DNA from: Leeuwenhoekiella aestuarii | Lineage (GTDB): Bacteria; Bacteroidota; Bacteroidia; Flavobacteriales; Flavobacteriaceae | Direction: 5' to 3' | Assembly (NCBI RefSeq): GCF_004104055.1 | Contig: NZ_QOVJ01000001.1 | Span: 1,054,001-1,118,000 of the forward strand | DNA: 64,000 nucleotides | Part shown: piece after piece, positions 9,486 through 47,360 of the stretch | Numbering within the stretch: the stretch's first letter is position 1 | Layout of the letters: every line of letters starts with the position of its first letter | Program-made: the position numbers and the translations under genes | Notes under the pieces: generated by a model | The model's database searches: none | The model's input: only the letters and a program-made list of their open reading frames with translations | What the model was told of the DNA's origin: nothing

Positions 9486-9657
9486 GGCCTATCAGGAGGT
9501 TCTCGTAAAATTTGAAGTGAACGCAGCGTAGCAGGCGGTTCTGTCTGAGGCCAGCGGCCGAGTTAAGCGCTTGCAGCGGAGTGAGCAATAAATTTAGAGA
9601 AGCTCCTGTAAGCCTAGATTTTTTTGGTTCGTTTTTTCATCAATGGAAAAAATGAAC
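9486..9657 (+). repeat. Giant-hairpin repeat unit, class I, with its second hairpin
   Basis: The unit runs from GGCCTATCAGGAGGTTCTCG to CTCCTGTAAGCCT (9486-9615), and its ends are inverted copies of each other. The inner part has GCAGGCGGTT opposite AAGCGCTTGC and a GGCC-AGC-GGCC tip, so almost the whole 130 nt folds back on itself. TAGATTTTTTT follows, then a second palindrome at 9627-9657 (GTTCGTTTTTTC ... GAAAAAATGAAC). There is no convincing coding content. Confidence 0.8.
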
Positions 9658-9813
9658 AGAATTTATAAAGTAACTGTATTATTAATTTTAATACTGACTG
9701 ATTCTTTGGCATCGAGGCAAAAGAACAGGAATACTGTTAGAAGTTATACCTTCTAATGAGGTGTTGATTGATTTCCTAACGGAGATTTGAGTAGTACTTC
9801 TAAATCATGTTTC

Positions 9814-9896
9814 GTTCATTTTCTTTGCTTCTCCAAAGAAAACGAACCAAAAGAAAAGAGCCCCTCGTTTAGGAATTTTTCGCCTTGGGGCGAAAA
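9814..9896 (+). repeat. Repeat-family hairpin pair
   Basis: The palindrome at 9814-9847 (GTTCATTTTCTTTG ... CAAAGAAAACGAAC) is the longer version of the second hairpin of the repeat family. A short stem TTTTCGCC-TTGG-GGCGAAAA follows at 9877-9896. A copy with the same layout is at 46946-47029, and a changed but still pairing version is at 39799-39880. Confidence 0.7.
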
Positions 9897-10061
9897 CCGC
9901 CTTGTCAGCTCCGCGTCGCTACCGCTCCTGTCCTTCGGAGCTTCCTGTGTCTATTCTGAACCGAGGGAAGGGCATTCGTTTAACCCTTCGGGTATGAATA
10001 TGTATAGTTTCATTCTTCTAACTATTTTATACTATCTAATTTCTAATAGAACGCCAGTACC

Positions 10062-10261
10062 GGCCTATCAGGAGGTTCTCGTCAAATTTGCGGTGAGCGT
10101 AGCGTAGCAGGCGGTTCTGTTTGAGGCCGTGGCCGAGTTAAGCGCATGCAGCGCAGGGAGCAATAAATTTAGAGAACCTCCTGTAAGCCTAGATTTTTTT
10201 GTTTCCAGCCGCATCAACTCGCTCAAAGACATGCTTTGCCGTATCAATGGAAAAAATGAAC
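10062..10261 (+). repeat. Giant-hairpin repeat unit, class I, carrying the 41-nt insert
   Basis: 10062-10190 is a class I unit (GGCCTATCAGGAGGTTCTCG to AACCTCCTGTAAGCCT) whose outer arms GAGGTTCTC/GAGAACCTC pair perfectly. After the T-run, the second hairpin has one arm replaced by a 41-nt block (10200-10240, reverse complement of the block at 24481-24521 and 39397-39437), then ends AATGGAAAAAATGAAC. Confidence 0.78.
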
Positions 10262-10351
10262 AGAAAGATGAATAGGAGTTATAGCTTCTAATGAGGTGTT
10301 GATTGATCTTCTATCGGAGATTTGAATAATTTCAACATCTATCGATGTTTT

Positions 10352-10380
10352 ATTCTTTTTTTGGGTGATGCAAAAAAGAT
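10352..10380. repeat. Repeat-family second hairpin, variant
   Basis: ATTCTTTTTTTGG and GCAAAAAAGAT form an imperfect palindrome. It follows the boundary motif (TTCTAATGAGGTGTTGAT ... GGAGATTTGA, 10289-10325) that ends most units. Between here and the DUF3037 gene there is only a 20-nt sequence (10403-10423) resembling the CTTCGACAAGCTCAG small repeat. Confidence 0.5.
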
Positions 10381-10474
10381 AGTACGATGAATATCCTGAC
10401 TGTACTTCGACCAGGCTCAGCACGCACGCTTGATGTAACAATTTTTAATATTGAAGTTTTTCAATGACGATTCC

Positions 10475-10858
10475 TCAAAGCACCAAATCTGCAAACAACT
10501 GCTCCAGTGTTTGTTCTAGATCTTCACTAAAACCCGGATGAGTCTTTGAAGTTTGAATCACCGAACTTCGGGTAGCCGTTAACCAGCGAAAACGTTCTGC
10601 AACTTCCAGTTTTGCTATGGGGCCGCCGTTTGTATCACCGGCACAAATGGCTTTAAAAGCATTGAGGTTTTTTTCAACCTGTTCCACATCCAGTTCGGGG
10701 CAAAAGGCAGCCAGTTTGTTGGAATCTAGCTGAAATTTCATCCCAATAAAACGCGGACGTTTGCAATAGACCACCACGCCTACGTTAAAAAACTCTTCGC
10801 GCTCCACCTGGGGAACGATGCGGATTACCGCATACTCATACAAGTGCTTGTCGTGCAT
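10475..10858 (-). CDS. DUF3037 family protein
   Basis: A 127-residue protein with the DUF3037 pattern: YAVIRIVPQVEREEFFNVGVVVYC at the N-terminus and FIGMKFQLDSNKLAAF next. The conserved Glu-Glu-Phe-x-Asn-Val-Gly segment is intact. No catalytic function is established for the family. It overlaps the 3' end of the HipA-like kinase gene by 23 nt, which is the arrangement in which this family is usually found. The pair is transcribed leftwards towards the 9.2-10.5 kb repeat cluster. Confidence 0.82.
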   Translation of the reverse strand: MHDKHLYEYAVIRIVPQVEREEFFNVGVVVYCKRPRFIGMKFQLDSNKLAAFCPELDVEQVEKNLNAFKAICAGDTNGGPIAKLEVAERFRWLTATRSSVIQTSKTHPGFSEDLEQTLEQLFADLVL

Positions 10859-11892: not shown

Positions 11893-11911
11893 CAAATTAA
11901 AACAATGTATT

Positions 11912-12836: not shown

Positions 12837-12837
12837 A

Positions 12838-14157
12838 ATGAAAACACTGTTATATATAGTACTCGTCCTTATTAGCTTTAGTGTAACCGCACAAAAACCT
12901 GTTGTTAACTCCGCTAAACTGGAGGAAATCAAATCCTATTTAAAACACTTTGAAGATAATGATGCCCTCTTAGGAAGTGTTTCTGTATTTGAAAACGATA
13001 AGGAACTACTAAACCAGTCGTTTGGTGCGATCCCAGCTTCAAGAACAACTAAGTATCAGGTAGGTTCAATCTCTAAAATGTTTACTGCTGTTCTTATAGG
13101 GCAATTAGTAGAAGAACATAAAATGGATCTCAACGAGCCTTTAGCAACCTATTTTCCGAAGATGCCTGGTGCATCCTCTATAAAATTGAGTAATCTGCTT
13201 AATCATACCAGCGGACTTCAGAATTTTGTGGTCAAACAGGATAGTTTAAAATATTGGTTAAAAAAGCCGGTGAGCCAGCAAGCTATTCTTGATGAAATCG
13301 CACGTCAGGGAGTAGCCTTTCAACCGGGAGACAGCATCAGCTATTCAAATTCCGGATATTATTTGCTGACTCGTATCCTTGAACAGAAGTATAAAAAACC
13401 CTATGAAACTATCCTTGAAGAAAGGATTACCAGGCCGTTTGGACTTGAAAATACCTTTAGTTTAAATGGTAAAACAGAATATGAAGACACAGCGATTTCT
13501 TATGAAAAGAAAGACAATAAGTGGGTGAAATTGGAGGAGTTTTATTTTCCGAATGTTCAGGGAGTAGGAGATATCATCAGTACATTGTCTGATCTCAATT
13601 CTTTTATGAGCGCTCTTTTTAACAACGAGATTCTTAAAGAAGAAACACTTAAAAGGATGTTGCCGAAGGATGACGACTGGTTTGGGCTTGGGATTATGAA
13701 GGCCCCATTTTACAACCATATCGCTTACGGTCATGGCGGTGATACCTACGGGACGCACACGGTTACCTCCTACCATCCGGAAAGCAAATTGGGAATTACC
13801 TATGTGATTAATGGAGAAGGATATCCTACAAATAACTTTGCAATAGGATTATTGAGTATTATTTATGATAAAGACTATAGCTTGCCGGAGCTTACAGAAT
13901 ATACGCCTGATAAATTGTATTACGACGCGTATACAGGAACGTATTCCAGTCCTGAATTGCCTATTGCAATTACTGTTTATCAAAAAGAAGGTGCTTTAAT
14001 GGCTCAGGGAGAAGGGCAGTCTCCATTTACATTAACTCCAAAATCTAAACATACCTTTGCGTATTTGAAGGCAGGAATACATATTACATTTGACCCCGAT
14101 GCCGAAACATTTCTTTTTAAGCAGGGTGGGCAGCAGTTCGAGTTGAAAAAGAAATAA
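12838..14157 (+). CDS. Secreted serine hydrolase, class C beta-lactamase/DD-peptidase family
   Basis: A 439-residue protein. The signal peptide ends near residue 19 (SVTAQ). The beta-lactamase-family catalytic residues are visible: SISK (Ser near 78, Lys near 81), YSNSGY (Tyr near 171) and the third motif as HGGD near 300. A C-terminal beta-rich domain of about 90 residues follows (YTGTYSSPELPIAITVY), as in Bacteroidota esterase-like members. It may be a D-aminopeptidase, esterase or cell-wall peptidase; resistance to beta-lactams should not be inferred. It is the third gene of the padR operon. Confidence 0.85.
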   Translation: MKTLLYIVLVLISFSVTAQKPVVNSAKLEEIKSYLKHFEDNDALLGSVSVFENDKELLNQSFGAIPASRTTKYQVGSISKMFTAVLIGQLVEEHKMDLNEPLATYFPKMPGASSIKLSNLLNHTSGLQNFVVKQDSLKYWLKKPVSQQAILDEIARQGVAFQPGDSISYSNSGYYLLTRILEQKYKKPYETILEERITRPFGLENTFSLNGKTEYEDTAISYEKKDNKWVKLEEFYFPNVQGVGDIISTLSDLNSFMSALFNNEILKEETLKRMLPKDDDWFGLGIMKAPFYNHIAYGHGGDTYGTHTVTSYHPESKLGITYVINGEGYPTNNFAIGLLSIIYDKDYSLPELTEYTPDKLYYDAYTGTYSSPELPIAITVYQKEGALMAQGEGQSPFTLTPKSKHTFAYLKAGIHITFDPDAETFLFKQGGQQFELKKK

Positions 14158-14215
14158 GAAATCACGTCTCTGATATAAAAATCGCTTAATTTGTAGCTGT
14201 CTAAGACTAGAATCT

Positions 14216-16120: not shown

Positions 16121-16954
16121 ATGGAGGTAAAAGAGATCGTTTCCGCAACATGGCTTCACGCACATTTAGGAAATGAAAAGCTGATCATTTTAGACGCCAG
16201 TCTCGCTCAAACAGCAACCGGTAAAACCCCGGCCAGTTCAACGGAAACCATTCCAAACGCACGGTATTTTGACCTGAAGCATGTGTATTCAGATGCTTCG
16301 AGTGTTTTTCCCAATACGCTCCCTGCTCCTGCGGCTTTTGAAGAAGAAGTGCGAAAGCTGGGCATTGATACCGATTCCATACTGGTAGTTTTTGATAATC
16401 TGGGCGTGTATTCGAGTCCGCGGGTATTGTGGCTTTTTCAGAGTATGGGACACCAAAAGATCGCGGTGCTTGATGGCGGTTTACCGGAATGGAAGGCTCA
16501 GGGTTTTGAGGTGGAAGAGCGTAGGCCATCACCTCTTAAATCGGGTAATTTTAAAGCCCGGTTCAATCCAGAGCTGCTGGCGACCTACGAAGCGGTACTT
16601 GCAAATACCTTAAACAAAACCTTTACGCTTGTCGATGCCCGTTCAGCAGGTCGGTTTAACGGAACCGCCCCTGAACCGCGTAAGCAGCTCCAAAGCGGGA
16701 GTATTCCTAATTCGGTCAACATCCCCTACGAACGGGTTTTGACTGATGGAAAATTCAAAAGCAAAGAAGCGCTTCAGGAAGTTTTTAAACCTACCGCAGA
16801 TGCAGAGAATCTGGTATTCAGTTGTGGTTCGGGGTTGACTGCGTGTATCGTGATGCTGGCAGCAGTACGTGCCGGTAGATCAAGTAAACGCCTGTATGAC
16901 GGTTCGTGGACCGAGTGGGCCGAACTGCAAAACCTGACGCTTGATGCAGAGTAG
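16121..16954 (+). CDS. Two-domain sulfurtransferase (thiosulfate/3-mercaptopyruvate type)
   Basis: A 277-residue tandem rhodanese. The N-terminal domain is inactive-type and carries LIILDASL and PRVLWLFQSMGHQKIAVLDGG. The C-terminal domain carries the persulfide Cys in VFSCGSGLTACI (Cys near 235), followed by ARAGRSSKRLYDGSWTEW, the family signature end. The CGSGLTA loop is that of 3-mercaptopyruvate sulfurtransferases (SseA-like) rather than bovine rhodanese. Cytoplasmic. Its role would be sulfur transfer or cyanide/thiol detoxification. It is the last gene of the 14.2-16.95 kb group. Confidence 0.9.
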   Translation: MEVKEIVSATWLHAHLGNEKLIILDASLAQTATGKTPASSTETIPNARYFDLKHVYSDASSVFPNTLPAPAAFEEEVRKLGIDTDSILVVFDNLGVYSSPRVLWLFQSMGHQKIAVLDGGLPEWKAQGFEVEERRPSPLKSGNFKARFNPELLATYEAVLANTLNKTFTLVDARSAGRFNGTAPEPRKQLQSGSIPNSVNIPYERVLTDGKFKSKEALQEVFKPTADAENLVFSCGSGLTACIVMLAAVRAGRSSKRLYDGSWTEWAELQNLTLDAE

Positions 16955-17021
16955 CTAAAGCAGGGTAGAGCAGGATAAGTTTGTTGCGCTAATCTCCTAT
17001 TTTGTGCTATCAATACATCTT

Positions 17022-18623
17022 ATGAAAAAGCCGCTATACATCTGCTCTGTTATTTTGAGTTACTGGGTTATCTTCTTTTCAAGCACGATAAACGCAGCTT
17101 ACGCTCAGAACACCATTACAAACGATTCTTTTTGGAACACCGTTACTGGAAAACCCATCTATTCTCAAGGAGGTGGAATCTTTCAGTTTAAAGACCCGCA
17201 GAGCGGAAAGCTACACTATTACTGGTATGGGGTGCATTATAAAGAAGCCGAAGCCTACCGCCACGATCCGTCAGTGACCTATGAGCGCAATCACTTTGAA
17301 GGGGTCACCTGTTATACGTCTACAGATCTGGTCAATTGGAAATTTGAAAAACATGTACTCACCAAAGAAGCAGTAAACTACGATAAGCGACCTACCTGGC
17401 TGGGGCGTATGGGGGTCGCGTATGTTGCAGAATTGGAACAATACGCCTTGTTCATTCAGCACGGAAAGAACGTACTGATTGCCCTGGCAGATTCACCCCT
17501 GGGCGATTTTAAAGTGCATCGGCATATAGATATGACAGACCGAATTGGCACCCCCAATACCGGAGATCAAACGGTATTTACCGATCCCGATACGGGAAAA
17601 TCTTATTTGGTATATTCCTACGGGCAGGGACGTAACAAGATCTACCTTTCCGAAATTGGCGTACGCGATGGAAATGTTGATTTGCTGGATGTAAAAGAGA
17701 TCTTTAGAGGGGCCAGCCGCGAGGGGAATTGTATGTTTAAATACAACGGGAAGTACTACATGACTGCGTCCAATATTTACGGCTGGGACGGTTCGTTTGC
17801 CTATTACCTGGTAGCTGACGATATCTACGGACCGTATAAACCCATCAACGAAATGCAGATAATGCCCGGCAGCGAGCAGGATTATGCACATGTTTCCCAA
17901 ACTGGTTTTTTCTATACCATCCCGGGGAGCGAACAAGAGACGGTACTGTTTTGTGGAGACCGATGGGCGGAGTTTGCCGGTAACGGCCTGGGATACAACC
18001 AATGGGTGCCGCTTTCTTTTGAGGGCGAGATTCCGTATTTCAACTCGTTAAGCGCGTGGAATCTGGACGAAGAAACCGGAATCTGGAGCGTGGCTAAAAC
18101 CAATAATTTTATCAAAAACGGCAGTTTTGAAGCCGACCGCCGGTATATTCCCAGCAACAACAAACCGGTACAGGAACAGCTCCTGGGTTGGAACACAGAG
18201 ATCTTAAAAGGCAACTCCATTTCCACCACAGATCCCGATTCCCCGGTATTGAATTACTTCAATACCCGTGAAGATCGCAAACAGGTTGTAGGTGAAAAAA
18301 GTCTGTATCTCAGTGACACCGTACCGTTTGAACGCGTGGTCTCTCAGGAAATCACGGCATCACCTTACGTTGAACTCCCGGACGGGAATTACACCTTAAG
18401 CGCCAAAATCAGGAATACAGCGGGCTTTACGAAGCTAAACCTTTTTGCAACCAGTGGCGGCAATTCAAAAACCGCTGATCTTACTTTAGAAACTCCAGAG
18501 TGGACGCGCATCAGTATCACGAATATTCCCATTAAAAATGGAAAAGTAAAAGTGGGTATCGAAGCGCAGGCTGCCGCAGGTGCTTATGCAATCTTGGATG
18601 AGATCAGCTTAGTCAAGGAATAA
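17022..18623 (+). CDS. Secreted GH43-like five-bladed propeller protein with C-terminal CBM-like domain
   Basis: 533 residues from the ATG at 17022; an in-frame GTG at 17004 is less likely. Signal peptide to about residue 28. The propeller part (30-360) has the repeated motif of GH43/GH32-like enzymes: FQFKDPQSGKLHYYWYG, VTCYTSTDLVNWKFEKHV and NTGDQTVFTDPDTGKSYLVY. The C-terminus (from NGSFEADRRYIPS) resembles a carbohydrate-binding beta-sandwich. Subfamilies of this shape include exo-beta-1,3-galactosidases and uncharacterised enzymes, so the linkage is not assigned. It is followed by a repeat cluster. Confidence 0.75.
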   Translation: MKKPLYICSVILSYWVIFFSSTINAAYAQNTITNDSFWNTVTGKPIYSQGGGIFQFKDPQSGKLHYYWYGVHYKEAEAYRHDPSVTYERNHFEGVTCYTSTDLVNWKFEKHVLTKEAVNYDKRPTWLGRMGVAYVAELEQYALFIQHGKNVLIALADSPLGDFKVHRHIDMTDRIGTPNTGDQTVFTDPDTGKSYLVYSYGQGRNKIYLSEIGVRDGNVDLLDVKEIFRGASREGNCMFKYNGKYYMTASNIYGWDGSFAYYLVADDIYGPYKPINEMQIMPGSEQDYAHVSQTGFFYTIPGSEQETVLFCGDRWAEFAGNGLGYNQWVPLSFEGEIPYFNSLSAWNLDEETGIWSVAKTNNFIKNGSFEADRRYIPSNNKPVQEQLLGWNTEILKGNSISTTDPDSPVLNYFNTREDRKQVVGEKSLYLSDTVPFERVVSQEITASPYVELPDGNYTLSAKIRNTAGFTKLNLFATSGGNSKTADLTLETPEWTRISITNIPIKNGKVKVGIEAQAAAGAYAILDEISLVKE

Positions 18624-18811
18624 TCTTTTTTCTTATCGAACGCAGTCGAGATACAGCCTTTGTTCATTTTTTCATTGATTCATCAAAGCTTACATGAGCT
18701 TCTCTAAATTTTTTGCTCCCTGCACTGCATGCGCTTAACTGAGCCGGCGCAGCGACCACAATTAAAACTATTTGTATGCGAGCGAGCTATTAATTTCTAT
18801 TCTTCTTCTCT

Positions 18812-18984
18812 TTCTTTTTTGCATCGCCCAAAAAAGAAACAAAAAACGCTAGGCTCACAAGACGGTATCTAAATTTATCGTTCGCTGCACTGCATGCGCT
18901 TAACTCGGCCGCTCTGGCAGCCTCAAACAGAACCGCCTGCGACGTTCCGCTCACATCAAATTTCACGATACCTTCTTGTAGGCC
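18812..18984 (-). repeat. Giant-hairpin repeat unit, class IV
   Basis: The unit occupies 18851-18984: AGGCTCACAAGACGGTATCT at one end and ACGATACCTTCTTGTAGGCC at the other. These are inverted copies, with a stem sequence unlike class I (CAAGAAGGTATC in place of CAGGAGGTTCTC). The interior is nearly the same as class I (GCATGCGCTTAACTCGGCC). The second hairpin is TTCTTTTTTGCATCGCCCAAAAAAGAA split as two 9-nt arms at 18812-18838. A truncated class I remnant lies just to the left, at about 18690-18760. Its translation gives only a short open frame shared with 24531-24664, which I take as spurious. Confidence 0.75.
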
Positions 18985-19018: not shown

Positions 19019-19333
19019 TCATACCGAAGGGTTTAGTTTCCTTTTGGTCAGTATACCGACAGCACCCCCTTAAGAATTCCTGAAGTTATGCTGAACCGAG
19101 GGAATTTCGATTTTGTTTAAACCTTTAGGTAGGAGAATTTTCAATAGAATGGTAAAACGGCCTACTTTTTAGATCTGTAGTAAAACAAGCGGGCGCCGCA
19201 GCGGTGGGCAGTGGAGGATAGCCTAGCGCAGCGGTTTGCTATCCGCAGGCAAAGGCGTTTGCGTAGTTTTCAAAGATGTAAAAATAAGCCTAGATTTTTT
19301 TGGTTCGTTTTTTCATCGATGGAAAAAATGAAC
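19019..19333 (+). repeat. Giant-hairpin repeat unit, class II, with 5' module
   Basis: Nearly the same ~310-nt sequence occurs at 24060-24372 and 40201-40515. The hairpin itself (19159-19291) starts GGCCTACTTTTTAGATCTG and ends GATGTAAAAATAAGCCT, again inverted relative to each other. It has an inner perfect stem GGATAGC/GCTATCC. The T-run TAGATTTTTTTGG follows, then the second hairpin at 19303-19333. The 5' part includes the ACCGAGGGAATTTCGAT segment. Boundary motif ATCTCCGATAGGAGAT follows near 19365. Confidence 0.78.
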
Positions 19334-24059: not shown

Positions 24060-24372
24060 ATACCCGAAGGGTTTAGTTTCCTTTTGGTCAGTATAACGAC
24101 AGCATCTCGTTAAAATTCCTGAAGCTATTCTGGAGCGAGTGAATTTCGATTTCGTTTAAACCTTTGGCTATGAGAATTTTCAATAGAATGATAAAACGGC
24201 CTACTTTTTAGATCTGTAGTAAAACAAGCGGGCGCCGCAGCGTTGGGCAGTGGAGGATAGCCTAGCGCAGCGTTTTGCTATCCGCAGGCAAAGGCGTTTG
24301 CGTAGTTTTCAAAGATGTAAAAATAAGCCTAGATTTTTTTGGTTCGTTTTTTCATCGATGGAAAAAATGAAC
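24060..24372 (+). repeat. Giant-hairpin repeat unit, class II, with 5' module
   Basis: Near copy of 19019-19333. The hairpin is 24198-24330 (GGCCTACTTTTTAGATCTG to GTAAAAATAAGCCT), and the second hairpin is 24342-24372. Between the sulfatase stop and this unit, 23984-24050 is a remnant of the GGCC end of a class I unit (CTCCTGATAGGCC) with its flank. The boundary motif ATCTCCGTTAGGAGAT is at about 24403-24418. Confidence 0.78.
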
Positions 24373-24472
24373 AGAACATGATTAGAAGTAAGCACTACTC
24401 AAATCTCCGTTAGGAGATCAAACAACACCTCATTAGAAGATATAATTGCTATTCATCTTCCTGTTCTTTTGT

Positions 24473-24664
24473 CTTGATACGGCAAAGCATGTCTTTGAGC
24501 GAGTTGGTGCGGCTGGAAACCAAAAAATCAAGGCTCACAAGACGGTATCTAAATTTTTCGTTTGCTGCACTGCATGCGCTTAACTCGGCCGCTCTGGCGG
24601 CCTCAAACAGAACCGCCTGCGACGTTCCGCTCACATCAAATTTCACGCTACCTTCTTGTAGGCC
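24473..24664 (-). repeat. Giant-hairpin repeat unit, class IV, carrying the 41-nt insert
   Basis: The unit is 24531-24664 (AGGCTCACAAGACGGTATCT to CTACCTTCTTGTAGGCC), a near copy of 18851-18984. The second hairpin is disrupted: after CTTGATAC the pairing arm is replaced by a 41-nt block (24481-24521, GGCAAAGCATGTCTTTGAGC and on) identical to that at 39397-39437. The block itself contains the small stem CAAAG-CATGT-CTTTG. Confidence 0.75.
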
Positions 24665-24797
24665 GTTCTTCAAGTAATAACAAACACTTAGATGATATTT
24701 ATACCGAGGGGTAAACGAATGCCCTACCCTCGGTTCAGAATAGGCGTAGGACGTTCCGAAAGTATATTAGTTTGTTCTTAGTAAAAATTTTAAAAGC

Positions 24798-26818: not shown

Positions 26819-26822
26819 TAAA

Positions 26823-26928: not shown

Positions 26929-26964
26929 AAACCGTTGCTTGTAAGTTCCAACTTAATACTAATA

Positions 26965-31880: not shown

Positions 31881-32069
31881 GGAGGCTCAGCTAAAACCGG
31901 TTTAAGTGCTTAACGCTAACCCCTAAATCTTAATAAAACGTCACTACCTAAACAGCTTTCCCGCTAGTTTGGTCGTTAGGCTGGCATTATAAACGTATTT
32001 AATACATTTTTTTCTGGTTTGATTGTCAGTCTTTTAGTATTTTTAATAGTTCATCAATCAAAAATCATA

Positions 32070-32726
32070 ATGAAATCTTTAAAAGCCTTCCTGTTACTTA
32101 TAGCTGCCGCCCTGCTCAGTACCAGTTGCGGTTTTGATGTAAGCTATCAATCTTCCGCAAAAACCTCCACAAACTCCAGTAAAGCGCTCGAAGAGGTTGG
32201 TGACCCGGACCCCGAAGTCCGTATGCGCTCGGTAAGCAAAATGAGCTCCAGCCCGGCATTAACTGAAATCGCCAAAACGGACAAAAATCCTGAAGTACGA
32301 AAACTTGCCGTGAGTAAGATCAGTTTCAGTCCGGCACTTACGGATATTGCGAAAACCGATAAAGACCCCGAGGTGCGTAAACTGGCGGTGAGTAAACTGG
32401 ATTTTGGGCCTGCATTGACCGACATTGCCAAAACGGATAAGGATCCTGAAGTGCGCAAACTGGCGGTGAGTAAGATCAGCTTCAGTCCGGCACTTACGGA
32501 TATTGCAAAAACGGACAAGAATCCCGAGGTGCGTAAGCTGGCGGTAAGTAAACTGAATTTTGGTCCTGCATTGACCGACATCGCCAAAACGGATAAGGAT
32601 CCTGAGATACGTAAGTTCGCAGTAAGTAAGATCAGTTTCAGTCCGGCGCTCCTTGATATTGCTAAAACCGATAAAGACCCCGGAGTACGCATTGCAGCAC
32701 TAGAACGCTTAAGCGACTTAAACTAA
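32070..32726 (+). CDS. Lipoprotein with six 26-residue HEAT/LRV-like tandem repeats
   Basis: 218 residues from the ATG at 32070; an upstream frame to 32019 is not needed. The lipobox is LSTSC (Cys20). From residue 48 the unit PEVRKLAVSK-(I/L)-(S/D/N)F-(S/G)P-AL-TDIAKTDK-(D/N) repeats: five more full copies follow the first, plus a half copy at the end. The pattern resembles leucine-rich-variant or HEAT repeats, which build a superhelical binding surface. Copies alternate between ISFSP and L(D/N)FGP forms, so a 52-residue (156-nt) block has been duplicated. The partner is unknown. Confidence 0.8.
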   Translation: MKSLKAFLLLIAAALLSTSCGFDVSYQSSAKTSTNSSKALEEVGDPDPEVRMRSVSKMSSSPALTEIAKTDKNPEVRKLAVSKISFSPALTDIAKTDKDPEVRKLAVSKLDFGPALTDIAKTDKDPEVRKLAVSKISFSPALTDIAKTDKNPEVRKLAVSKLNFGPALTDIAKTDKDPEIRKFAVSKISFSPALLDIAKTDKDPGVRIAALERLSDLN

Positions 32727-36632: not shown

Positions 36633-37373
36633 TTAATGGCTGTTTGTTTTTAAAAGTTCCGGGAACTTTTCTTTAAATCGGTTGATTCTCGGTATCGAAA
36701 CCTTTTGGATGTATGGGTTTTCGGGGTGTTGTACCTCGTAGTTCTGGTGATAGCCTTCTGCTTCCCAGAATTTTTCAAAAGGTTTTACCTCCGCAGCAAC
36801 CGGTTCGCTCAGTTTTTGAGCTAAAGCTGCTTTCTTTTCTTCTATAATGTTCTTTTCAGCATCATTCTGATAAAAGATAATAGAGCGGTATTGCGATCCG
36901 TGATCAGGCCCCTGACCGTTCACTTGTGTGGGGTTTTGCGAACCAAAGTACACATCCACCAGCTGACTGAAGCTGATGACTTCAGGATCGTAAATTACTT
37001 TTACCGCTTCGGCGTGACCCGTTTTACCGGTGTTGCTGTCTTCGTAAGTCGGGTTTTTGGTATGACCCCCGGCATATCCTGAGATCGCTTCATCAACCCC
37101 TTTTACGCTTTCATAAACCGCTTCTACACACCAGAAACATCCGCTGGCAAAATAAGCCGTAGCCCGATCCTGATTTTGGGTAGCTTCAGCATCGCGTTGC
37201 TCAGGCTCCGCCATGGCTTCTGATGCAGTGCCGTCTGTATTCAAGGCCAGTTCAGGGGTGGTTGCTACCGCTGCGCTGTCTGTATGTTTAGGAGCATTAT
37301 CACAGCTCGTAAAGAATAAGCTCAAGGCTATCATTCCCGCTAGTAATGCTGATAAGATGATTCTATTTTTCAT
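36633..37373 (-). CDS. msrA: Peptide methionine sulfoxide reductase MsrA, lipoprotein form
   Basis: A 246-residue protein. A lipoprotein signal ending FFTSC and an acidic linker (to about 70) precede the MsrA domain. The active site is ASGCFWCVEAVYE, with the catalytic Cys in GCFW. YAGGHTKNPTYEDSNTGKTG, GHAEAVKVIYDP and DHGSQYRSIIFY are conserved. It reduces Met-S-sulfoxide in periplasmic or surface proteins. Lone gene with a terminator. The 130 nt upstream show no clear regulator site, then the repeat cluster starts. Confidence 0.93.
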   Translation of the reverse strand: MKNRIILSALLAGMIALSLFFTSCDNAPKHTDSAAVATTPELALNTDGTASEAMAEPEQRDAEATQNQDRATAYFASGCFWCVEAVYESVKGVDEAISGYAGGHTKNPTYEDSNTGKTGHAEAVKVIYDPEVISFSQLVDVYFGSQNPTQVNGQGPDHGSQYRSIIFYQNDAEKNIIEEKKAALAQKLSEPVAAEVKPFEKFWEAEGYHQNYEVQHPENPYIQKVSIPRINRFKEKFPELLKTNSH

Positions 37374-37556
37374 AGCACGTTTTACCTATAAACGCAATTC
37401 CTCTTGCGTTGGTTTTATAGACGCAAAGTTGCAGCTAAACTTTCTTAAGACCATGCTAATTTTTTCTGCTTTTTGATAAACTATTGATAAAGTACATGAA
37501 GAGGCTTTTTCTTTTTTGAATCCGAAGGATTTAGTTTCCTTTTGGTCCGTATAACG

Positions 37557-37609
37557 ACAGCATCCCGTTAAGAATTCCTGAAGCCTTGGAAGGAATTTAG
37601 GAATGCTGT
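37557..37609. repeat. Double-hairpin module of the repeat family
   Basis: The outer stem ACAGCAT (37557-37563)/ATGCTGT (37603-37609) encloses the inner AATTCCT (37573-37579)/AGGAATT (37591-37597). The copy at 39744-39790 has different arms that still pair. Confidence 0.65.
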
Positions 37610-37644
37610 TGAGGTTCTTACTAAAGATTCAAAAATCAGTTTGG

Positions 37645-37872
37645 TACTGGTGTTCTATTAGACTTGAGACGGTAGAAGATAGCTACAAGAATAAAAATAT
37701 ACCTATCCAGAAGGCGTCATTTCTTTTCTGCATCCGACGACCGCAGGGAGAGGAATGCATTACTTGAGGTTAAGTATAAAAGCTCAAACGACGAAGGAGT
37801 TTCTCAAGCAAATCGACGACAGGAGATTCACGAGCTCCCGTAAACTAACAATCACGCGAGTAAAGAAAATGA
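37645..37872 (+). repeat. 228-nt direct repeat, copy 1
   Basis: TACTGGTGTTCTATTAGACT through ACGCGAGTAAAGAAAATGA. It is almost identical to 38133-38360, with an exact offset of 488 nt. It includes the CTCCCGTAA ... ACGCGAG segment, a form of which is also at about 25018-25045. No gene is seen. Confidence 0.8.
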
Positions 37873-37964
37873 ATGAAACATGGTAAAGAAGTAAGCACTA
37901 CTCAAATCTCTGATAGGAGATCAAACAACACCTCATTAGAAATCTAACTTCTAAGCGTGTTTCT

Positions 37965-38130
37965 GTTCTTTTGTCTTGATACAAAAGAACCAAAAGATCA
38001 AGGCTTACATGAGGTTCTCTAAATTTTATGTTCCCTCCGCTGCATGCGCTTAACTCGGCCGTTGGCCTCAAACAGAAGCGCCTGCTACGCTACACTCCCT
38101 GCAAATTTGACGAGAACCTCCTGATAGGCC
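37965..38130 (-). repeat. Giant-hairpin repeat unit, class I
   Basis: The unit is 38001-38130: AGGCTTACATGAGGTTCTCT to GAGAACCTCCTGATAGGCC, with GAGGTTCTC/GAGAACCTC pairing perfectly and an inner GCGCTT/AAGCGC stem under a GGCC-GTT-GGCC tip. The second hairpin at 37965-37990 is GTTCTTTTG-TCTTGATA-CAAAAGAAC. The unit sits between the two 228-nt direct repeats. Confidence 0.8.
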
Positions 38131-38132
38131 GT

Positions 38133-38360
38133 TACTGGCGTTCTATTAGACTTGAGACGGTAGAAGATAGCTACAAGAATAAAAATATACCTATCCAAAA
38201 GGCGTCATTTCTTTTCTGCATCCGACGACCGCAGGGAGAGGAATGCATTACTTGAGGTTAAGTATAAAAGCTCAAACGACGAAGGAGTTTCTCAAGCAAA
38301 TCGACGACAGGAGATTCACGAGCTCCCGTAAACTAACAATCACGCGAGTAAAGAAAATGA
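38133..38360 (+). repeat. 228-nt direct repeat, copy 2
   Basis: Second copy of 37645-37872. The near identity shows a recent duplication of a 488-nt period that includes a class I hairpin unit. The boundary motif (ATCTCTGATAGGAGAT ... CACCTCATTAGAA) follows both copies. Confidence 0.8.
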
Positions 38361-38450
38361 ACAGAACATGATTAGAACTAGGCATTACTCAAATCTCTGA
38401 TAGGAGATCAAACAACACCTCATTAGAAGTAAATAATATGAAAACCAAAA

Positions 38451-39209
38451 CTACTTTGCATAAAACCCATCAGGTTTGGCATCTTTGCTCAGAGTCGCAT
38501 GCTCAAATAAAACGGTGTTCCGCGGTTGGGTAACAGCGCCGTTTTCGGTAGCATACCAACTGATGCTTTTGGGCAATAGCATGCCGTTAACCGGGGTCCA
38601 TGCTGCATAAGAAATATAACTGATGCGGTCTGATTTTTTGGCAGCGCCAAAAGTAGCCGTATAGCCCAACCAACGCATCTGGTAGGTTTTGGAGTCGTAG
38701 TATAAATAATACTCGTCATTAGCAGAAGAACCAATGTTGGCTTCAAAACTTATTTTAATACCGGGATAGCTGGTGTCTGCTACCTGAAGGGCTTCAGTCT
38801 CTTCATAAATAATGCCCGGATCTGCCAGTACAAAAGGCATCGCATAAAAGTAGAACATCAGGTTGTGGTAAAACTCCGGATTGCCGGTATACGTAGAATC
38901 CGGATCGGAAAGCCAGACTTCCTGACCGTCATAACCCAACGTTGCCGTGCCGATCTCCAACCGGTCTTTTCGGGTATGCAGGTCGATGGTGTGTGTTTCT
39001 TTTTGGTCCTCTCCTTTAACAAGCGTATAGCTCAAGGTTTGAAAACTATTCCAGTTTTTCAAGGAGCCGTGGGCATCCAGCACTTGAGCAAAGTTATCGG
39101 GATAAACGGTTGCGGTTTCTGTTTCCTCAGGAACAGCGGCTGTCTTCTTCGTTTTAGAATTGCAGGAAACGATACCGATAAACAGCGCTAGAAGAATAAT
39201 TTTTTTCAT
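38451..39209 (-). CDS. DUF6503-like lipoprotein, 252 aa
   Basis: Started at the ATG at 39209 (MKKIILLALFIGIVSC); a longer frame to 39254 adds residues before the signal. The lipobox is GIVSC. The body has VLDAHGSLKNWNSFQTLSY, then beta strands including FEANIGSSANDEYYLYYD and WYATENGAVTQPRNTVLF, a LolA/LppX-like half-barrel pattern seen in DUF6503 proteins. The function is unknown; a lipid or cofactor carrier role is possible by fold. It is surrounded by repeat clusters on both sides. Confidence 0.68.
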   Translation of the reverse strand: MKKIILLALFIGIVSCNSKTKKTAAVPEETETATVYPDNFAQVLDAHGSLKNWNSFQTLSYTLVKGEDQKETHTIDLHTRKDRLEIGTATLGYDGQEVWLSDPDSTYTGNPEFYHNLMFYFYAMPFVLADPGIIYEETEALQVADTSYPGIKISFEANIGSSANDEYYLYYDSKTYQMRWLGYTATFGAAKKSDRISYISYAAWTPVNGMLLPKSISWYATENGAVTQPRNTVLFEHATLSKDAKPDGFYAK

Positions 39210-39383
39210 AAGAAACGATGGGTTGTAAGTGGTTTTAGTCTGTAGGAGCAGCAAATGCTTACAGGAGGAGGTAGTATTGAGATATTAGACTTGAGATGAT
39301 AGAACTAGGCATTACTCAAATCTCTGATAGGAGATCAATCAACACCTCATTAGAAATCTAACTTCTAAGCGTGTTTCTGTTCT

Positions 39384-39575
39384 TTTGTCTTGATACGGCA
39401 AAGCATGTCTTTGAGCGAGTTGGTGCGGCTGGAAACCAAAAGATCAAGGCTTACATGAGGTTCTCTAAATTTTATGTTCCTCCGCTGCATGCGCTTAACT
39501 CGGCCGTTGGCCTCAAACAGAACCGCCTGCTACGCTACGCTTCCTGCAAATTTGACGAGAACCTCCTGATAGGCC
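39384..39575 (-). repeat. Giant-hairpin repeat unit, class I, carrying the 41-nt insert
   Basis: Unit 39447-39575 (AGGCTTACATGAGGTTCTCT to ACCTCCTGATAGGCC). One arm of the second hairpin is replaced by the 41-nt block at 39397-39437, identical to that at 24481-24521. Confidence 0.77.
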
Positions 39576-39743
39576 AGTACTGACGTTCTATTAGACTTGA
39601 GACGGTAGAAGATAGCTACAAGAATAAAACCATACCTATTCATACCCGAAGAGTTAAACGAATGATTATTTTCAATTAAAGAAAACTACGTTAATGGACT
39701 ATAAATACTATTCTTTAGCCCTCTTTTCTTCAGTATAGCAAGA

Positions 39744-39818
39744 AGTCCCCGTTAAGAATTTTCGAAGCCTTGGAGAAAATTTAGGGGACTACTTGTGGTT
39801 TTGCCCCTTAGGGCAAAA
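39744..39818. repeat. Double-hairpin module plus short stem
   Basis: The outer stem AGTCCCC (39744-39750)/GGGGACT (39784-39790) encloses AATTTT (39757-39762)/AAAATT (39776-39781). Then TTTTGCCC (39799-39806)/GGGCAAAA (39811-39818) follows. All three differ in sequence from their counterparts at 37557-37609 and 9877-9896, yet still pair. Confidence 0.65.
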
Positions 39819-39846
39819 ATACCTAAGAAAAGGCTCTTTTCTTTTG

Positions 39847-39880
39847 GTTCGTTTTCTTTGGAGAAGCAAAGAAAATGAAC
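39847..39880. repeat. Repeat-family second hairpin
   Basis: GTTCGTTTTCTTTG ... CAAAGAAAATGAAC, the reverse-oriented counterpart of 9814-9847 and 46946-46979. Confidence 0.65.
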
Positions 39881-39969
39881 AGAACATGATTAGAAGTAAG
39901 TCTTACTCAAGTCTCCGTTAGGAGAACAATCAACACCTCATTAGAAATCTAACTTCTAAGCGTGTTTCT

Positions 39970-40135
39970 GTTCTTTTGCCTTGATGCCAAAGAACCAAAA
40001 GATCAAGGCTTACATGAGCTTCTCTAAATTTATTGCTCACTCCGCTGCATGCGCTTAACTCGGCCACGGGCCTCAAACAGAACCGCCTGCTACGCTACGC
40101 TTCCTGCAAATTTGACGAGAACCTCCTGATAGGCC
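39970..40135 (-). repeat. Giant-hairpin repeat unit, class I
   Basis: Unit 40006-40135 (AGGCTTACATGAGCTTCTCT to GAGAACCTCCTGATAGGCC). The second hairpin at 39970-39995 reads GTTCTTTTGCC-TTGAT-GCCAAAGAAC: compared with 37965-37990 both arms have gained a G-C pair. Confidence 0.77.
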
Positions 40136-40200
40136 GGTACTGGCGTTCTGTTAAACTTGAGATGATAGAAGAAAGCTAAAAGAATAAAGAGAATACCTGT

Positions 40201-40515
40201 TCATACCGAAGGGTTCAATTTCCTTTTGGTCTGTATAGCAAGAGTATACCGTTAAGAATTCCTGAAGCTATTCTGGACCGAGGGAATTTCGATCTTGTAT
40301 AAACCTTTGGCTATGAGAATTTTCAATAGAATGATAGAACGGCCTACTTTTTAGATCTGTAGTAAAACAAGCGGGCGCCGCAGCGATGGGCAGTGGAGGA
40401 TAGCCTAGCGCAGCGGTTTGTTATCCGCAGGCAAAGGCGTTTGCGTAGTTTTCAAAGATGTAAAAATAAGCCTAGATTTTTTTGGTTCGTTTTTTCATCG
40501 ATGGAAAAAATGAAC
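40201..40515 (+). repeat. Giant-hairpin repeat unit, class II, with 5' module
   Basis: Third near copy of the 19019-19333 element. The hairpin is 40341-40473 and the second hairpin 40485-40515. It points against the flanking minus-strand genes. Boundary motifs follow to about 40600; the remaining 40 nt to the TlpA gene show nothing. Confidence 0.78.
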
Positions 40516-40639
40516 AAACATAATTAGAACTAGGAATTACTCAAATCTCTGATAGGAGATCAATCAACACCTCATTAGAACTAGGCATTCCTCAATTCGA
40601 AAGAACATCAACGTAAATCACACCAAAACATCAAACCCC

Positions 40640-41260
40640 TTACTGCAACTCCTCTAAATAGTCCCTAAACTCCTTGGTATCATAATCGGCCATACCCAGA
40701 TGGGTGAGGGCGAGTTTTCCTTCAGCATTGATCACAAGAGTTGTGGGCAGGCTGCCGGTGTTGTACATCTCGGGCAGGTCGTAGGCAATGCGGTAAATGG
40801 GAAAGTCAAAGCCTTTTTTAGCTTTAAAAGCCTTAGCTTTTTCAAAATCGGTATCAAAAGAGACCAGTACAAAGTTCACCTCGTCCTTTTTATCGGCATA
40901 CAGATTCGCAATACCTGGCATTTCAGCGATACAAGGCGGACACCACGTTGCCCAGAAGTTGATGAAATACGGCTTATGCGGCATTGCATCCAGAGAAACC
41001 AGTTGGCCCTCTTCATCAAAAAACTGCACATCCAGATCAGCGGGATCTCCCGGTTCAACGGCGGTACTGTTTGCACCTTTTACCCGGGTTTTTCCTTCGG
41101 TATCAGGTACTTCCTTAAGTTTAGGGTTCATAATCCCTGTTTTAAGAATGCCGCGTTGCACGGTTGCCATGATAGGTTTGTGTAAGCCTGTGGAATAAAC
41201 CACAACCAGAACAGCGAAGAGGATTCCGTATTTGAGTAAGCGTTTTTGACGGGTATGCAT
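40640..41260 (-). CDS. TlpA family membrane-anchored thioredoxin
   Basis: 206 residues from the ATG at 41260; the frame extends to 41323 but the added sequence is not signal-like. One N-terminal membrane segment (about 9-26) anchors a periplasmic thioredoxin domain. The redox motif is FWATWCPPCIAEMPG, and SLPTTLVIN holds the cis-Pro. It is a disulfide reductase probably serving cytochrome c or copper-site assembly, by analogy to ResA/TlpA. Monocistronic, preceded by the terminator of the epimerase operon. Confidence 0.88.
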   Translation of the reverse strand: MHTRQKRLLKYGILFAVLVVVYSTGLHKPIMATVQRGILKTGIMNPKLKEVPDTEGKTRVKGANSTAVEPGDPADLDVQFFDEEGQLVSLDAMPHKPYFINFWATWCPPCIAEMPGIANLYADKKDEVNFVLVSFDTDFEKAKAFKAKKGFDFPIYRIAYDLPEMYNTGSLPTTLVINAEGKLALTHLGMADYDTKEFRDYLEELQ

Positions 41261-44956: not shown

Positions 44957-45021
44957 TAAAATAGGCTGAAGCGGTCTGGTACTTTTACCGGGTAATTTGA
45001 TAACCATTAAATTTTTCAGGT

Positions 45022-45306: not shown

Positions 45307-45365
45307 CAGGGGTGAGAGCAACGAAGCTCTTTTAAGGATCAGTTGATTCAATTTTTTTTAACCAG

Positions 45366-45408
45366 GCTTCCGGAAATCTGAAAACAGATCTCCGGAAGCT
45401 ATTTTTGA
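45366..45408 (+). terminator. Terminator-like hairpin just before hemN
   Basis: GCTTCCGGA (45366-45374) and TCCGGAAGC (45391-45399) pair perfectly, and ATCTG/CAGAT extend the stem inside. TATTTTTGATTTTT follows. It ends only 12-20 nt before the hemN ATG (45420), so it is both the terminator of the 94-aa gene and part of, or an attenuator in, the hemN leader. Confidence 0.7.
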
Positions 45409-45419
45409 TTTTTCGAGTT

Positions 45420-46784
45420 ATGCATATTCCCTTAATAACCAAATACAATGTTCCCGGTCCCCGATACACCAGCTACCCAACGGTACCGTATTGGGACAAT
45501 GAGAACTTCAGTCTCAAAGACTGGAAAGACACCTTTAAAAAAAGCTTTTCAGCAAGTAATAAAAAAGAAGGGATCAGTCTGTATATACACTTACCCTTTT
45601 GTGAATCCATGTGCACCTTTTGCGGATGTACCAAGCGCATTACCAAAAACCACAGCCTCGAAGCCCCGTATATTAAAGCCGTATTGAAAGAACTCACCTT
45701 GTACCGGGATTTAGTAGGAGAACGCCCGGTGATACAACAAATACATTTAGGTGGAGGTACTCCTACCTTTTTTTCAGAAGCAAATCTGGCTACGCTCATG
45801 ACGGGTATTTTTAAAGTAGCGGATAAAGCTGCAGCTTGTGAGATGAGTTTTGAAGGCCATCCCAATAATACCACGCTGGAGCATTTAGAAACGCTGGCTT
45901 CGTTTGGTTTTACACGGGTGTGTTATGGGGTACAGGATTATAACGAAACCGTTCAAAAAGCCATCAACCGTATTCAGCCCTTTGCCCACGTGCAGCGCGC
46001 AACCGATCAGGCGCGACAAGCGGGCTATACCTCAGTGGGGCATGATATTATTTATGGACTCCCTTTTCAAACCCTGGACTGTGTAAAAAATACTATAGAA
46101 AAAACCATACAGTTATTCCCAGATCGCATCGCCTTTTACAGCTATGCACACGTGCCGTGGATTAAAGGCAACGGGCAGCGCGGTTATGATGCCGCCAATT
46201 TGCCTACGGCGGAAGAAAAGCGGGAGCAGTATGAGACTGGTAAGCAATTGCTGCTCGAAGCCGGTTATGTGGAGATCGGAATGGATCATTTTGCATTGCC
46301 TACTGATGATCTGTATCACGCCCAACAAGAAGAACGCATTCACCGTAATTTTATGGGCTATAATGCTTCTAAAACCCAGGTGATGCTGGGGTTGGGTGTT
46401 TCTGCTATCAGTGACAGCTGGTACAGTTTTGCACAAAATGTAAAAGGACTCTCTGAATACTATCACCTGCTTGAAAATAACATACTGCCCATTTTTAGAG
46501 GACATATGCTAACCGATGAAGATTTGAAAATCCGTAAGCATATCCTGAATCTGATGTGTCACTTTAAGACAAGCTGGAACGGACCTGCACTGTACTTTGA
46601 GGAGTTACCAGAAGTGTTGATCAAGCTGAAAGAACTGGAAGCAGACGGATTGCTGGTTTTTGAAACTAAAGCACTTCGCGTAACTGAAAAAGGAAAGCCT
46701 TTTGTACGCAATATCTGTTTGCCTTTTGATTTGCGTTTGCAGCGTAACAAACCGGAAACTAAACTGTTTTCCATGACGGTTTAG
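45420..46784 (+). CDS. hemN: Oxygen-independent coproporphyrinogen III oxidase HemN
   Basis: 454 residues from the ATG at 45420, the usual length. The start VPGPRYTSYPTVPYWD is typical of HemN. The radical SAM motif is CESMCTFCGC (CxxxCxxC plus a fourth Cys), binding the 4Fe-4S cluster. LGGGTPTFF and the HemN-specific C-terminal domain (IRKHILNLMCHF) follow. It decarboxylates coproporphyrinogen III without oxygen in heme synthesis. It lies near the cbb3 oxidase cluster, and its transcript may be started from the Fnr box at 44945. Confidence 0.94.
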   Translation: MHIPLITKYNVPGPRYTSYPTVPYWDNENFSLKDWKDTFKKSFSASNKKEGISLYIHLPFCESMCTFCGCTKRITKNHSLEAPYIKAVLKELTLYRDLVGERPVIQQIHLGGGTPTFFSEANLATLMTGIFKVADKAAACEMSFEGHPNNTTLEHLETLASFGFTRVCYGVQDYNETVQKAINRIQPFAHVQRATDQARQAGYTSVGHDIIYGLPFQTLDCVKNTIEKTIQLFPDRIAFYSYAHVPWIKGNGQRGYDAANLPTAEEKREQYETGKQLLLEAGYVEIGMDHFALPTDDLYHAQQEERIHRNFMGYNASKTQVMLGLGVSAISDSWYSFAQNVKGLSEYYHLLENNILPIFRGHMLTDEDLKIRKHILNLMCHFKTSWNGPALYFEELPEVLIKLKELEADGLLVFETKALRVTEKGKPFVRNICLPFDLRLQRNKPETKLFSMTV

Positions 46785-46945
46785 AAGATTACCTTTCATT
46801 TAATTTTAGTTGGTAAAACCTGTCTTGAATGCTGATTATTTAGTGTTTGAGACAGGTTTTTTTTAACTCGCTGTCGCTTATTGGTTTTGGAGCTCATGAA
46901 TCTCCTGCCGGAGATTCGCACATTCGAGTTTCTTTAGGATATTCT

Positions 46946-47029
46946 GTTCATTTTCTTTGCTTCTCCAAAGAAAACGAACCAAAAGAAAAGAGCCCCTCGC
47001 TTAGGAATTTTTCGCCTTATGGGCGAAAA
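46946..47029 (+). repeat. Repeat-family hairpin pair
   Basis: Palindrome 46946-46979 (GTTCATTTTCTTTG ... CAAAGAAAACGAAC), then TTTTCGCC (47009-47016)/GGCGAAAA (47022-47029). Same order as 9814-9896. Before it, 46785-46945 shows only an ATTCGAGTTT-type boundary remnant. Confidence 0.68.
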
Positions 47030-47188
47030 CCGCCTTGTCAGCTCCGCGTCGCTATCGCTCCTGTCCTTCGGAGCTTCCTGTAGCTATTCTGAACCGAGGT
47101 AATTTACAATTCGTTTACCCTTCGGGTATGAATACGTATAATTTTATTCTTGTATCTATAATCTCAAGTCTAATGGAATGCTAGTACC

Positions 47189-47360
47189 GGCCTATCAGGA
47201 GGTTCTCGTTAAATTTGCGGTGAGCGCAGCGTAGCAGGCGGTTCTGTTTGAGGCCAGCGGCCGAGTTAAGCGCATGCAGCGGAGCGAACAAAAAATTTAG
47301 AGAAGCTCCTGTCAGCCTAGATTTTTTTGGTTCGTTTTTTCATCGATGGAAAAAATGAAC
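47189..47360 (+). repeat. Giant-hairpin repeat unit, class I, with second hairpin
   Basis: Unit 47189-47318 (GGCCTATCAGGAGGTTCTCG to AGAAGCTCCTGTCAGCCT); T-run; second hairpin 47330-47360 (GTTCGTTTTTTC ... GAAAAAATGAAC). It lies 3' of hemN in the sense direction. The last 80 nt before the TauE/SafE gene show nothing. Confidence 0.8.

Follow-up and report, generated by a model that had tools for sequence, protein, structure and literature searches.

What are the giant hairpin repeats that lie between the genes of a 64,000-nucleotide stretch of the Leeuwenhoekiella aestuarii genome (contig NZ_QOVJ01000001.1, positions 1,054,001 to 1,118,000; here called the window), and is it their sequence or their fold that is conserved? 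A preliminary description had listed 12 such units in at least four sequence classes (here A, B, C, and D), each with two outer arms that are inverted copies of each other. All 12 are present in the window, with inverted arms and in the four classes (Table 1), and they are the heads of a two-part non-coding intergenic element. Selection on the fold of these heads is well supported, and it is one strand, designated the + strand, that is selected. We observed the fold itself, its conservation on one strand, paired change of the arms, spread among genomes, turnover between species, and an orientation bias.

Architecture and pairing of the elements

The units had been taken for complete elements, but each is only a head, after which come a T-rich linker and a tail hairpin. 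Heads are ~125 to 190 nt long and tails 25 to 45 nt. From left to right, the head consists of GGC-CT, a variable arm, an internal loop that has GTNA to the left and one A to the right, inner stems, the paired arm, and (C/T)AGCC or a similar sequence. The window units, ~130 nt in length, have 35 to 41 predicted or counted pairs in several helices and the ends GGCCT and AGCC. The start proposed for them, GGCC(T/A)A, reads GGCCTA in 11 units and GGCATA in the unit at 24798, while the proposed end, TAAGCCTAGA, is exact in six, the other six having TGAGCCTAGC, TGAGCCTTGA, TCAGCCTAGA, or TAAGCCTTGA. The statement that the units lie only between genes holds for plausible genes, but a 106-amino-acid open reading frame (ORF) with a TTG start (9787 to 10107) overlaps the unit at 10062 by 46 bases; this ORF is unlikely to be a real gene.

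Classes A, C, and D have a common inside, in which the internal loop (GTN(A) left, single A right) recurs with AAATTT stems beside it and in which the alignments show an apical TTTGA/GAGTT motif. The inside of class B is different, and only the ends and the layout are in common with the other three classes. (Below, G numbers denote genomes, G000 being that of the window itself [4.43 Mb], and L numbers denote fetched loci.) In L120 (365 to 512), the inside of a class C head is replaced by other hairpins, and insides seem to be swapped as modules. The tail is one of several types, and some tails are split by an inserted module. Tails of type II have a loop, ATCAAG, complementary to the CTTGAT present at the head's end, a feature that type I and type III tails lack. 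Among 16 tails found without any requirement on the loop, 15 kept TCAA within it, and the exception, L155, resembles coding sequence. The pyrimidine linker matches the purine strand of the tail in parallel register (e.g., TTTCTTTTG versus AAAGAAAAG), as seen in the tails of L193, L228, L181, L190, L206, and L212. A triplex of the linker with this purine strand is suggestive in places; direct duplication accounts for the match equally, so we make no claim of one. The spacers are mosaics of modules, and the list of pieces in the window had to be extended by a truncated unit and by a second head family (head2) with a tail of its own, type IV.

The pairing of the heads was examined in three alignments: A1, comprising 64 distinct class A and C copies from the genus; A2, comprising 36 class B copies; and A3, comprising 23 heads of the nested D type, 6 of them from the genus and one from each of 17 further genomes (16 other genera). 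In A1, 94.6% of the cells at paired positions were able to pair, compared with 89.2% in shuffled and at most 39.8% in slid controls, and cells changed on both sides of a pair numbered 146, compared with 53.6 in the shuffled alignments (reached in 0 of 500). The corresponding values for A2 were 98.6% versus 96.3% and 40 versus 12.2 cells (0 of 500). A3 has a four-helix structure with changes on both sides in 25 of 39 pairs (127 cells versus 39.4; 0 of 500 shuffles) and a covariation score of 0.402, compared with 0.124 when shuffled (0 of 500) and at most 0.090 when slid; 17 of its 23 rows were found by a model that scores pairing, so A3 leans towards structure. The proposal that the paired change reflects selection on a folded single strand is supported by compensatory changes far in excess of both kinds of control, together with the asymmetry between strands given below. 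That both arms had changed together in every class is true within the window, but 4 of the 64 genus copies of classes A and C are chimeric, with the left arm of one class and the right arm of another (L084:655, L086:611, L087:2104, and L119:674).

A wider set was collected by the tail alone, with no pairing criterion. GGCCT was present 85 to 190 bases upstream of 21 of the 26 tails preceded by AGCC, compared with 1 of the 44 other tails; the 26 are those with enough upstream sequence, and the 21 include window unit 38002, the other twenty coming from elsewhere in Bacteroidota. The arms of these 21 loci fall into 14 sequence groups, all still paired. Scores of an arm against its own partner ranged from 12 to 38 (mean, 26.5; median, 28), whereas the between-group mean was 10.9 and the maximum 27.0. 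The own right arm was the best match for 13 of the 21 left arms, and the three weakest loci (12 to 14) pair only partly. If more than one upstream GGCCT was present, we used that giving the better match between arms. Eight loci (seven from organisms other than Bacteroidota and a coding match belonging to a Microscilla record) were dropped from the arm tests and from the strand-folding comparison of the wide set below, and L155 was dropped from the arm tests.

Folding energies pointed the same way in most units, with z values of -2.5 to -5.9 against 200 dinucleotide shuffles in 9 of the 12, but not in three class A units: 38002 (z, -1.50), 39448 (z, -1.85), and 40007 (z, -0.09). For these three, the support is comparative and not energetic. 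Chance palindromes were rejected by covariation and by a search with a pattern of the two ends, which gave 23 copies in the window's own genome and 0 with the reversed control; energy alone would be insufficient for the three units.

In the helices, G-T pairs outnumbered A-C pairs by 79:16 in A1 and by 73:15 in A2, where helices were drawn from Watson-Crick pairs only, so that both strands were treated alike, and by 27:8 in A3, where the structure was given. Plain copying of a palindrome would give no such asymmetry. The + strand also folds better than its complement in 32 of 35 class A, 35 of 36 class B, 29 of 29 class C, and 7 of 7 class D heads. The effect is weaker in the wide set (+ strand better in 41 of 61 upstream stretches, and z below -2 in 27 of 61), which includes many short or unrelated heads and from which matches with <140 bases upstream were excluded. 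With a covariance model, the + strand of untruncated class A and C heads scored 130 to 155 bits, that of one truncated head 95 bits, and that of D and E-like heads 47 to 85 bits; on the - strand, scores were 25 to 32 bits in the three cases where one was reported at all.

Copies, turnover, and orientation

The 23 copies in the window's own genome are clustered near the window, in a ~20-kb stretch on contig C2, where tandem units are spaced by 306 and ~335 bp, and in a few other spots. With a looser left end, the pattern gave 27 copies there. Among the matches listed when 99 genomes were searched with the looser pattern, convincing units occurred in 9 of the 13 genus genomes and in one other genus (G050), and the remaining listed matches look like chance. 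The covariance model added a tenth genus genome, G007, with one copy. The fetched stretches yielded 112 distinct copies (class A, 37; class B, 36; class C, 31; class D, 8), chosen by sequence alone from 127 raw matches after removal of duplicates and rejection of 4, one of which is a true class B copy with a deletion; this list superseded an earlier one that demanded paired ends.

A search across the family, as had been suggested, extended the range. A head model, R1, had matches in 27 of the 249 genomes of the family that were searched, which represent 25 of its 235 genera; 25 of the 27 genomes are outside the window's genus, which contributes two. Some matches lie in tandem clusters, and the R1 counts per genome are lower bounds, no more than 13 candidates having been scored in each. 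In the 17 R1 loci that were read, among which L337 is not included (nor was it aligned), the layout was unchanged and the arms were different. Loci found by their tails come from Bacteroides salyersiae, Bacteroides nordii, Segetibacter, a Rhodothermia bacterium record, and several other Bacteroidota. A phylum-wide search with the tail pattern matched 10 of 395 genomes, mostly by chance, and two of these matches (G375 and G571) were judged real. Carriage by plasmids or phages was rejected, one class A query having given no blastn match in collections of either.

As proposed in the preliminary description, an orthologous locus was compared for empty sites. In 10 genus genomes, representing 10 species, a HemN-like gene and a DsbD-like gene border a syntenic spacer, which contains 0, 1, 2, or 4 heads that vary in class and orientation: one class A head (+) in G000, one C-like (-) in G009, four class C (-), one of them truncated, in G005, one class B in G011 (-) and in G010 (+), two E-like (+) in G003, and one E-like (+) in G004. 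G001 (220 bp), G006 (464 bp), and G002 (a type III tail only) have no head there. The HemN-like genes of G000 and G009 are 95.4% identical, yet the units in their spacers differ. Since the contents of the spacer differ between species and chimeras occur, the gain and loss of copies are fast. Two small ORFs (97 and 80 amino acids) lie between the directly repeated E-like heads of the G003 spacer (L168, 6285 to 6807) and by eye resemble a ParE/ParD-type pair.

Genes for the context counts were called with a crude ORF finder written by us (minimum length, 100 or 120 amino acids). For the genus, we used spacers of at least 250 bp in 44 regions, namely, 40 fetched stretches, the window, L032, L163, and L165. 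Spacers with units were tandem in 30 cases, convergent in 19, and divergent in 7, compared with 83, 28, and 37, respectively, for spacers without units (convergent versus divergent, Fisher P = 0.011). The avoidance of divergent spacers is a result for the genus only. With units and their surroundings masked, unit orientation and local GC skew agreed in 38 of the 54 spacers without ties (P = 0.004); for convergent or divergent spacers without ties, agreement was found in 22 of 25 (P = 0.00016). In the one single-contig genus genome sampled, 8 of the 9 listed units run with the skew, but these are few and clustered, and the claim is carried by the wider comparison. Because orientation tracks the skew, the folded + strand would tend to be the lagging-strand template.

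The preliminary description had also named structured 3' RNAs as a possible identity. As a sole role, this is weakened by the occurrence of units in all three types of spacer and in either orientation, and by the differences between species at one and the same spacer. A 3' untranslated region or terminator as the sole role was rejected on account of the mixed orientations and spacer types.

Known repeats and possible explanations

Intergenic hairpin repeats are a known kind of sequence. That this family is undescribed is supported by the Rfam search, in which no covariance model reached its gathering score in the window or on elements in 35 further loci; an Rfam E-value run on positions 37300 to 40700 gave three weak hits, which we took as chance. 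No description of the elements was found in the openly licensed literature that was searched, and the combination of head-tail design, size, conserved loop pattern, and arms that change freely across the phylum is new to the sources covered. The behavior of the elements is closest to that of repetitive extragenic palindromic (REP) or REPIN repeats and of miniature inverted-repeat transposable elements (MITEs). REP and REPIN elements and their REP-associated tyrosine transposases (RAYTs) are the subject of PMC3733652, PMC6006769, and PMC3116915; the first two give REP stems of 5 to 13 bp with a GTAG or CGTC tag. By comparison with these accounts, the elements are likewise intergenic, multicopy, and palindromic, with G-T pairs tolerated, probably one folded strand, and a lagging-strand logic. 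Unlike REPs and REPINs as described there, they are giant units of 125 to 190 nt with several stems, a separate tail, and no GTAG or CGTC terminal tag.

We know of no report of phylum-wide arms that differ but compensate in the enterobacterial RU-1 repeat. RU-1, compared here by description only, has a similar length (127 bp) and is also intergenic and MITE-like (PMC2759123). The BrickBuilt MITEs of Porphyromonas gingivalis, similarly compared by description, are also MITE-like intergenic repeats of Bacteroidota (PMC5771137). Flavo-1 RNA (RF01705; PMC2864571) is also a structured non-coding motif of Bacteroidetes, but it has no match to the units. In L183 (6774 to 6860), a Flavo-1 RNA lies ~220 bases from the tail of a related element; no Flavo-1 was found in the 16 further loci scanned.

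We favor, tentatively and at somewhat less than even confidence, the explanation that the units are non-autonomous mobile elements recognized via a folded single strand. During replication, the + strand, tending to be the lagging-strand template, would fold, and its fold, not its sequence, would be recognized by a structure-specific enzyme, either a recombinase or a transposase, provided from elsewhere in the cell. With such recognition, the arms may drift freely as long as pairing holds, arrays may expand, contract, and recombine, and copies may spread as non-autonomous mobile repeats. For IS608 and REP systems, PMC6006769 describes a folded lagging-strand template as the enzyme substrate. 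Mobility of a folded strand explains why copies are dispersed, form arrays, turn over, have free arms, tend to follow the skew, and lack a gene; from these properties we infer movement by transposition or site-specific recombination and DNA rather than RNA as the working form. Several results weigh against it. Searches for Y1 transposase, RAYT, and reverse transcriptase revealed no enzyme for the elements: PF01797 (Y1 transposase) had no match in the window's own genome or in unit-bearing G001, G002, G005, and G011, and reverse transcriptase (RVT_1) is absent from 9 of the 13 genus genomes. No clean single insertion or empty site with target duplication was seen at the compared spacer, and exchange between repeated modules by homologous recombination could account for much of the turnover. 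Divergent spacers are not avoided in the wide set (27 tandem, 6 convergent, and 9 divergent, with 13 of 71 matches inside called ORFs and 16 at contig edges). In tandem spacers of the genus, units run with the neighboring genes in 35 cases and against them in 10, and where genes oppose the skew, units follow the genes in 13 of 18 cases, as transcribed RNA would; because units track both skew and genes, replication and transcription are not cleanly separable. The conserved unpaired bases and the tail loop complementarity suit RNA too. Nearly as likely is a multicopy structured RNA, in which a head and tail transcribed together, with the tail loop ATCAAG pairing with CTTGAT, would be a stable regulatory or protein-binding molecule and the repeats would be its gene copies. 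One-strand selection with tolerance of G-U pairs and compensatory change would be expected of it (as of folded single-stranded DNA), and the unpaired motifs GTNA/A and TTTGA/GAGTT, the near-constant TCAA loop, and the 35 of 45 tandem-spacer units that run with their neighbors speak for it. However, there is no Rfam family for it, copy number, class, and orientation vary at one spacer between close species, and tail types I and III are without loop complementarity. As for mobile elements of a wider kind, it is doubtful that there is a phylum-wide class of structure-addressed single-strand elements in which an enzyme reads the conserved loop and mismatch pattern, the arms are free in each lineage or copy, and the head-tail design (one tail type can close a pseudoknot) is that of neither REP, MITE, nor attC.

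The arms could also have come to covary without any function, through template switching or hairpin-templated repair that copies one arm to the other in passive repeats, and the chimeras and duplications do show active recombination. Such copying, however, perfects the arms and is symmetric with respect to strand, whereas here imperfections (GTNA versus A, and a C/A mismatch) keep their positions in unrelated arms and G-T exceeds A-C about fivefold in the two large alignments, which makes this explanation improbable. Still less probable are REP- or BIME-like repeats processed by a Bacteroidetes-group RAYT (TnpA-REP), of which subclass 2.6, according to PMC6006769, has "atypical secondary structures" on its flanks that also occur at other sites of the genome. 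REPs likewise use one folded strand, intact RAYT genes occur in G003, G008, G009, and G010, and broken Y1 (RAYT) pieces, two in G000 and one in G005, were detected by a protein search; one of the G000 pieces lies 3.4 kb from two units and the G005 piece 6.8 kb from one; there is also one type IV tail in the 7-kb stretch around the G003 gene. Other short palindromes, however, flank all four intact genes (GCGCGAT..ATCGCG in G008, G009, and G010 and a different one in G003) and two of the three broken copies, those in L309 and L280, where a CGCCAGTCTGTGACTGG-type palindrome forms a separate short repeat family. Heads are absent from the 7-kb surroundings of the four intact genes, as are class A, C, and D model matches from 5.5 kb of sequence at the third broken copy. 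Units occur without any match to the RAYT query in G001, G002, G004, and G011, and G008 has RAYT and no unit by the pattern search. Because the flanks carry other palindromes and units and RAYT do not co-occur across the genus, RAYT does not fit as the enzyme, unless it acts at a distance, and this explanation is largely refuted in the genus. Least probable of all are integron-like attC sites of another, unknown system: variable arms with a conserved fold, defined ends, and an array in one orientation are in keeping with attC, but the attC core motif was not seen on inspection of the unit ends (no integrase search was made).

The preliminary description had grouped REP-like and MITE-like elements with recombination sites; membership in the REP group fails, as the RAYT genes of the genus carry other, short palindromes, and the MITE or recombination-site part may still apply. 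RAYT/REP subclass 2.6 was rejected as the source on these palindromes. In L342, L343, and L345, intact RAYT genes are flanked by GCGCGAT..ATCGCG palindromes, with 7 to 13 pattern matches per stretch (both strands summed), and these are a REP family of the genus distinct from the giant hairpins. The broken RAYT copies are located in L309 (~13855 to 14173), L280 (~16894 to 17518), and L350. An IS200/IS605-type MITE is not supported, as the PF01797 searches of the window's own genome and of four other unit-bearing genomes gave no autonomous Y1 relative, and only the broken RAYT pieces were found in G000 and G005. By the standard of a classical DDE MITE, the elements have only a GGC/GCC pair at their extreme ends, and one spacer revealed no duplication-bearing empty site. 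A retroelement was likewise rejected, RVT_1 being present in 4 of the 13 genus genomes and not in the window's own.

If this reading of the elements is right, much intergenic DNA in some Flavobacteriaceae and in related Chitinophagaceae and Bacteroidales loci would belong to one unnamed kind of element. Its identity would lie in the fold and not in the sequence, and sequence repeat searches would then see only small species-specific families. The enzyme would reveal how cells address DNA (or RNA) by shape. Should the elements be RNA, a multicopy structured RNA of a major phylum would be absent from Rfam. In either case, the question can now be tested with the covariance model and the table of arms.

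Hairpin pieces and neighboring features in the window

Table 1. Head and tail hairpins of the window, with strand and basis of assignment
Feature	Positions	Strand	Basis
Head, class A	9486-9614	+	Model match, 145.8 bits; folding energy
Tail, type I, of head 9486	9626-9657	+	Window tail map
Second element family: head2 core 9893-9930 and tail IV 9814-9847	9814-9930	-	
Head, class A; tail interrupted by ~40-base module	10062-10189	+	Model match
Truncated class A head, right part only	18688-18746 (contig C1, 1072688-1072746)	-	
Tail, type III, of head 18852	18812-18838	-	Window tail map
Head, class C	18852-18984	-	Model match, folding energy
Head, class B	19159-19290	+	Class B alignment, folding energy
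Tail, type I	19302-19333	+	Window tail map
Head, class B	24198-24329	+	Class B alignment, folding energy
Tail, type I	24341-24372	+	Window tail map
Head, class C; tail with inserted module	24532-24664	-	Model match
Head, class D, nested: inner second GTNAAATTT..AAATTTA stem	24798-24922	+	Model match, folding energy
Tail, type III	24936-24962	+	Window tail map
Tail, type II; loop ATCAAG complementary to CTTGAT at head end	37966-37991	-	
Head, class A; flanked by 238-base direct copies	38002-38130	-	Model match
Head, class A; tail with inserted module	39448-39575	-	Model match
Tail, type IV; belongs to a different head family	39847-39880	+	Window tail map
Tail, type II	39971-39996	-	Window tail map
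Head, class A	40007-40135	-	Model match
Head, class B	40341-40472	+	Class B alignment, folding energy
Tail, type I	40484-40515	+	Window tail map
Second element family: head2 core 47026-47063 and tail IV 46946-46979	46946-47063	-	
Head, class A; in HemN-like/DsbD-like spacer (10 species compared)	47189-47317	+	Model match
Tail, type I	47329-47360	+	Window tail map

The direct copies on either side of unit 38002 (37645 to 37882 and 38133 to 38370) are 98% identical. Judged by eye, the head2 at 9814 to 9930 resembles heads in Algibacter-type loci.

A defense cluster (25685 to 29522) starts 0.8 kb past the units at 24198 to 24923. It contains a Gabija-like pair, GajA (26881 to 28530; E value, 7.9e-114) and GajB (28515 to 29522; E value, 2.1e-45), and a PDC-S51 candidate protein (25685 to 26818; E value, 6.5e-141). 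Further along the window, a 78-bp repeat present in 5.6 copies (32249 to 32682) lies within a + strand ORF (32019 to 32726), which probably encodes a repeat protein.

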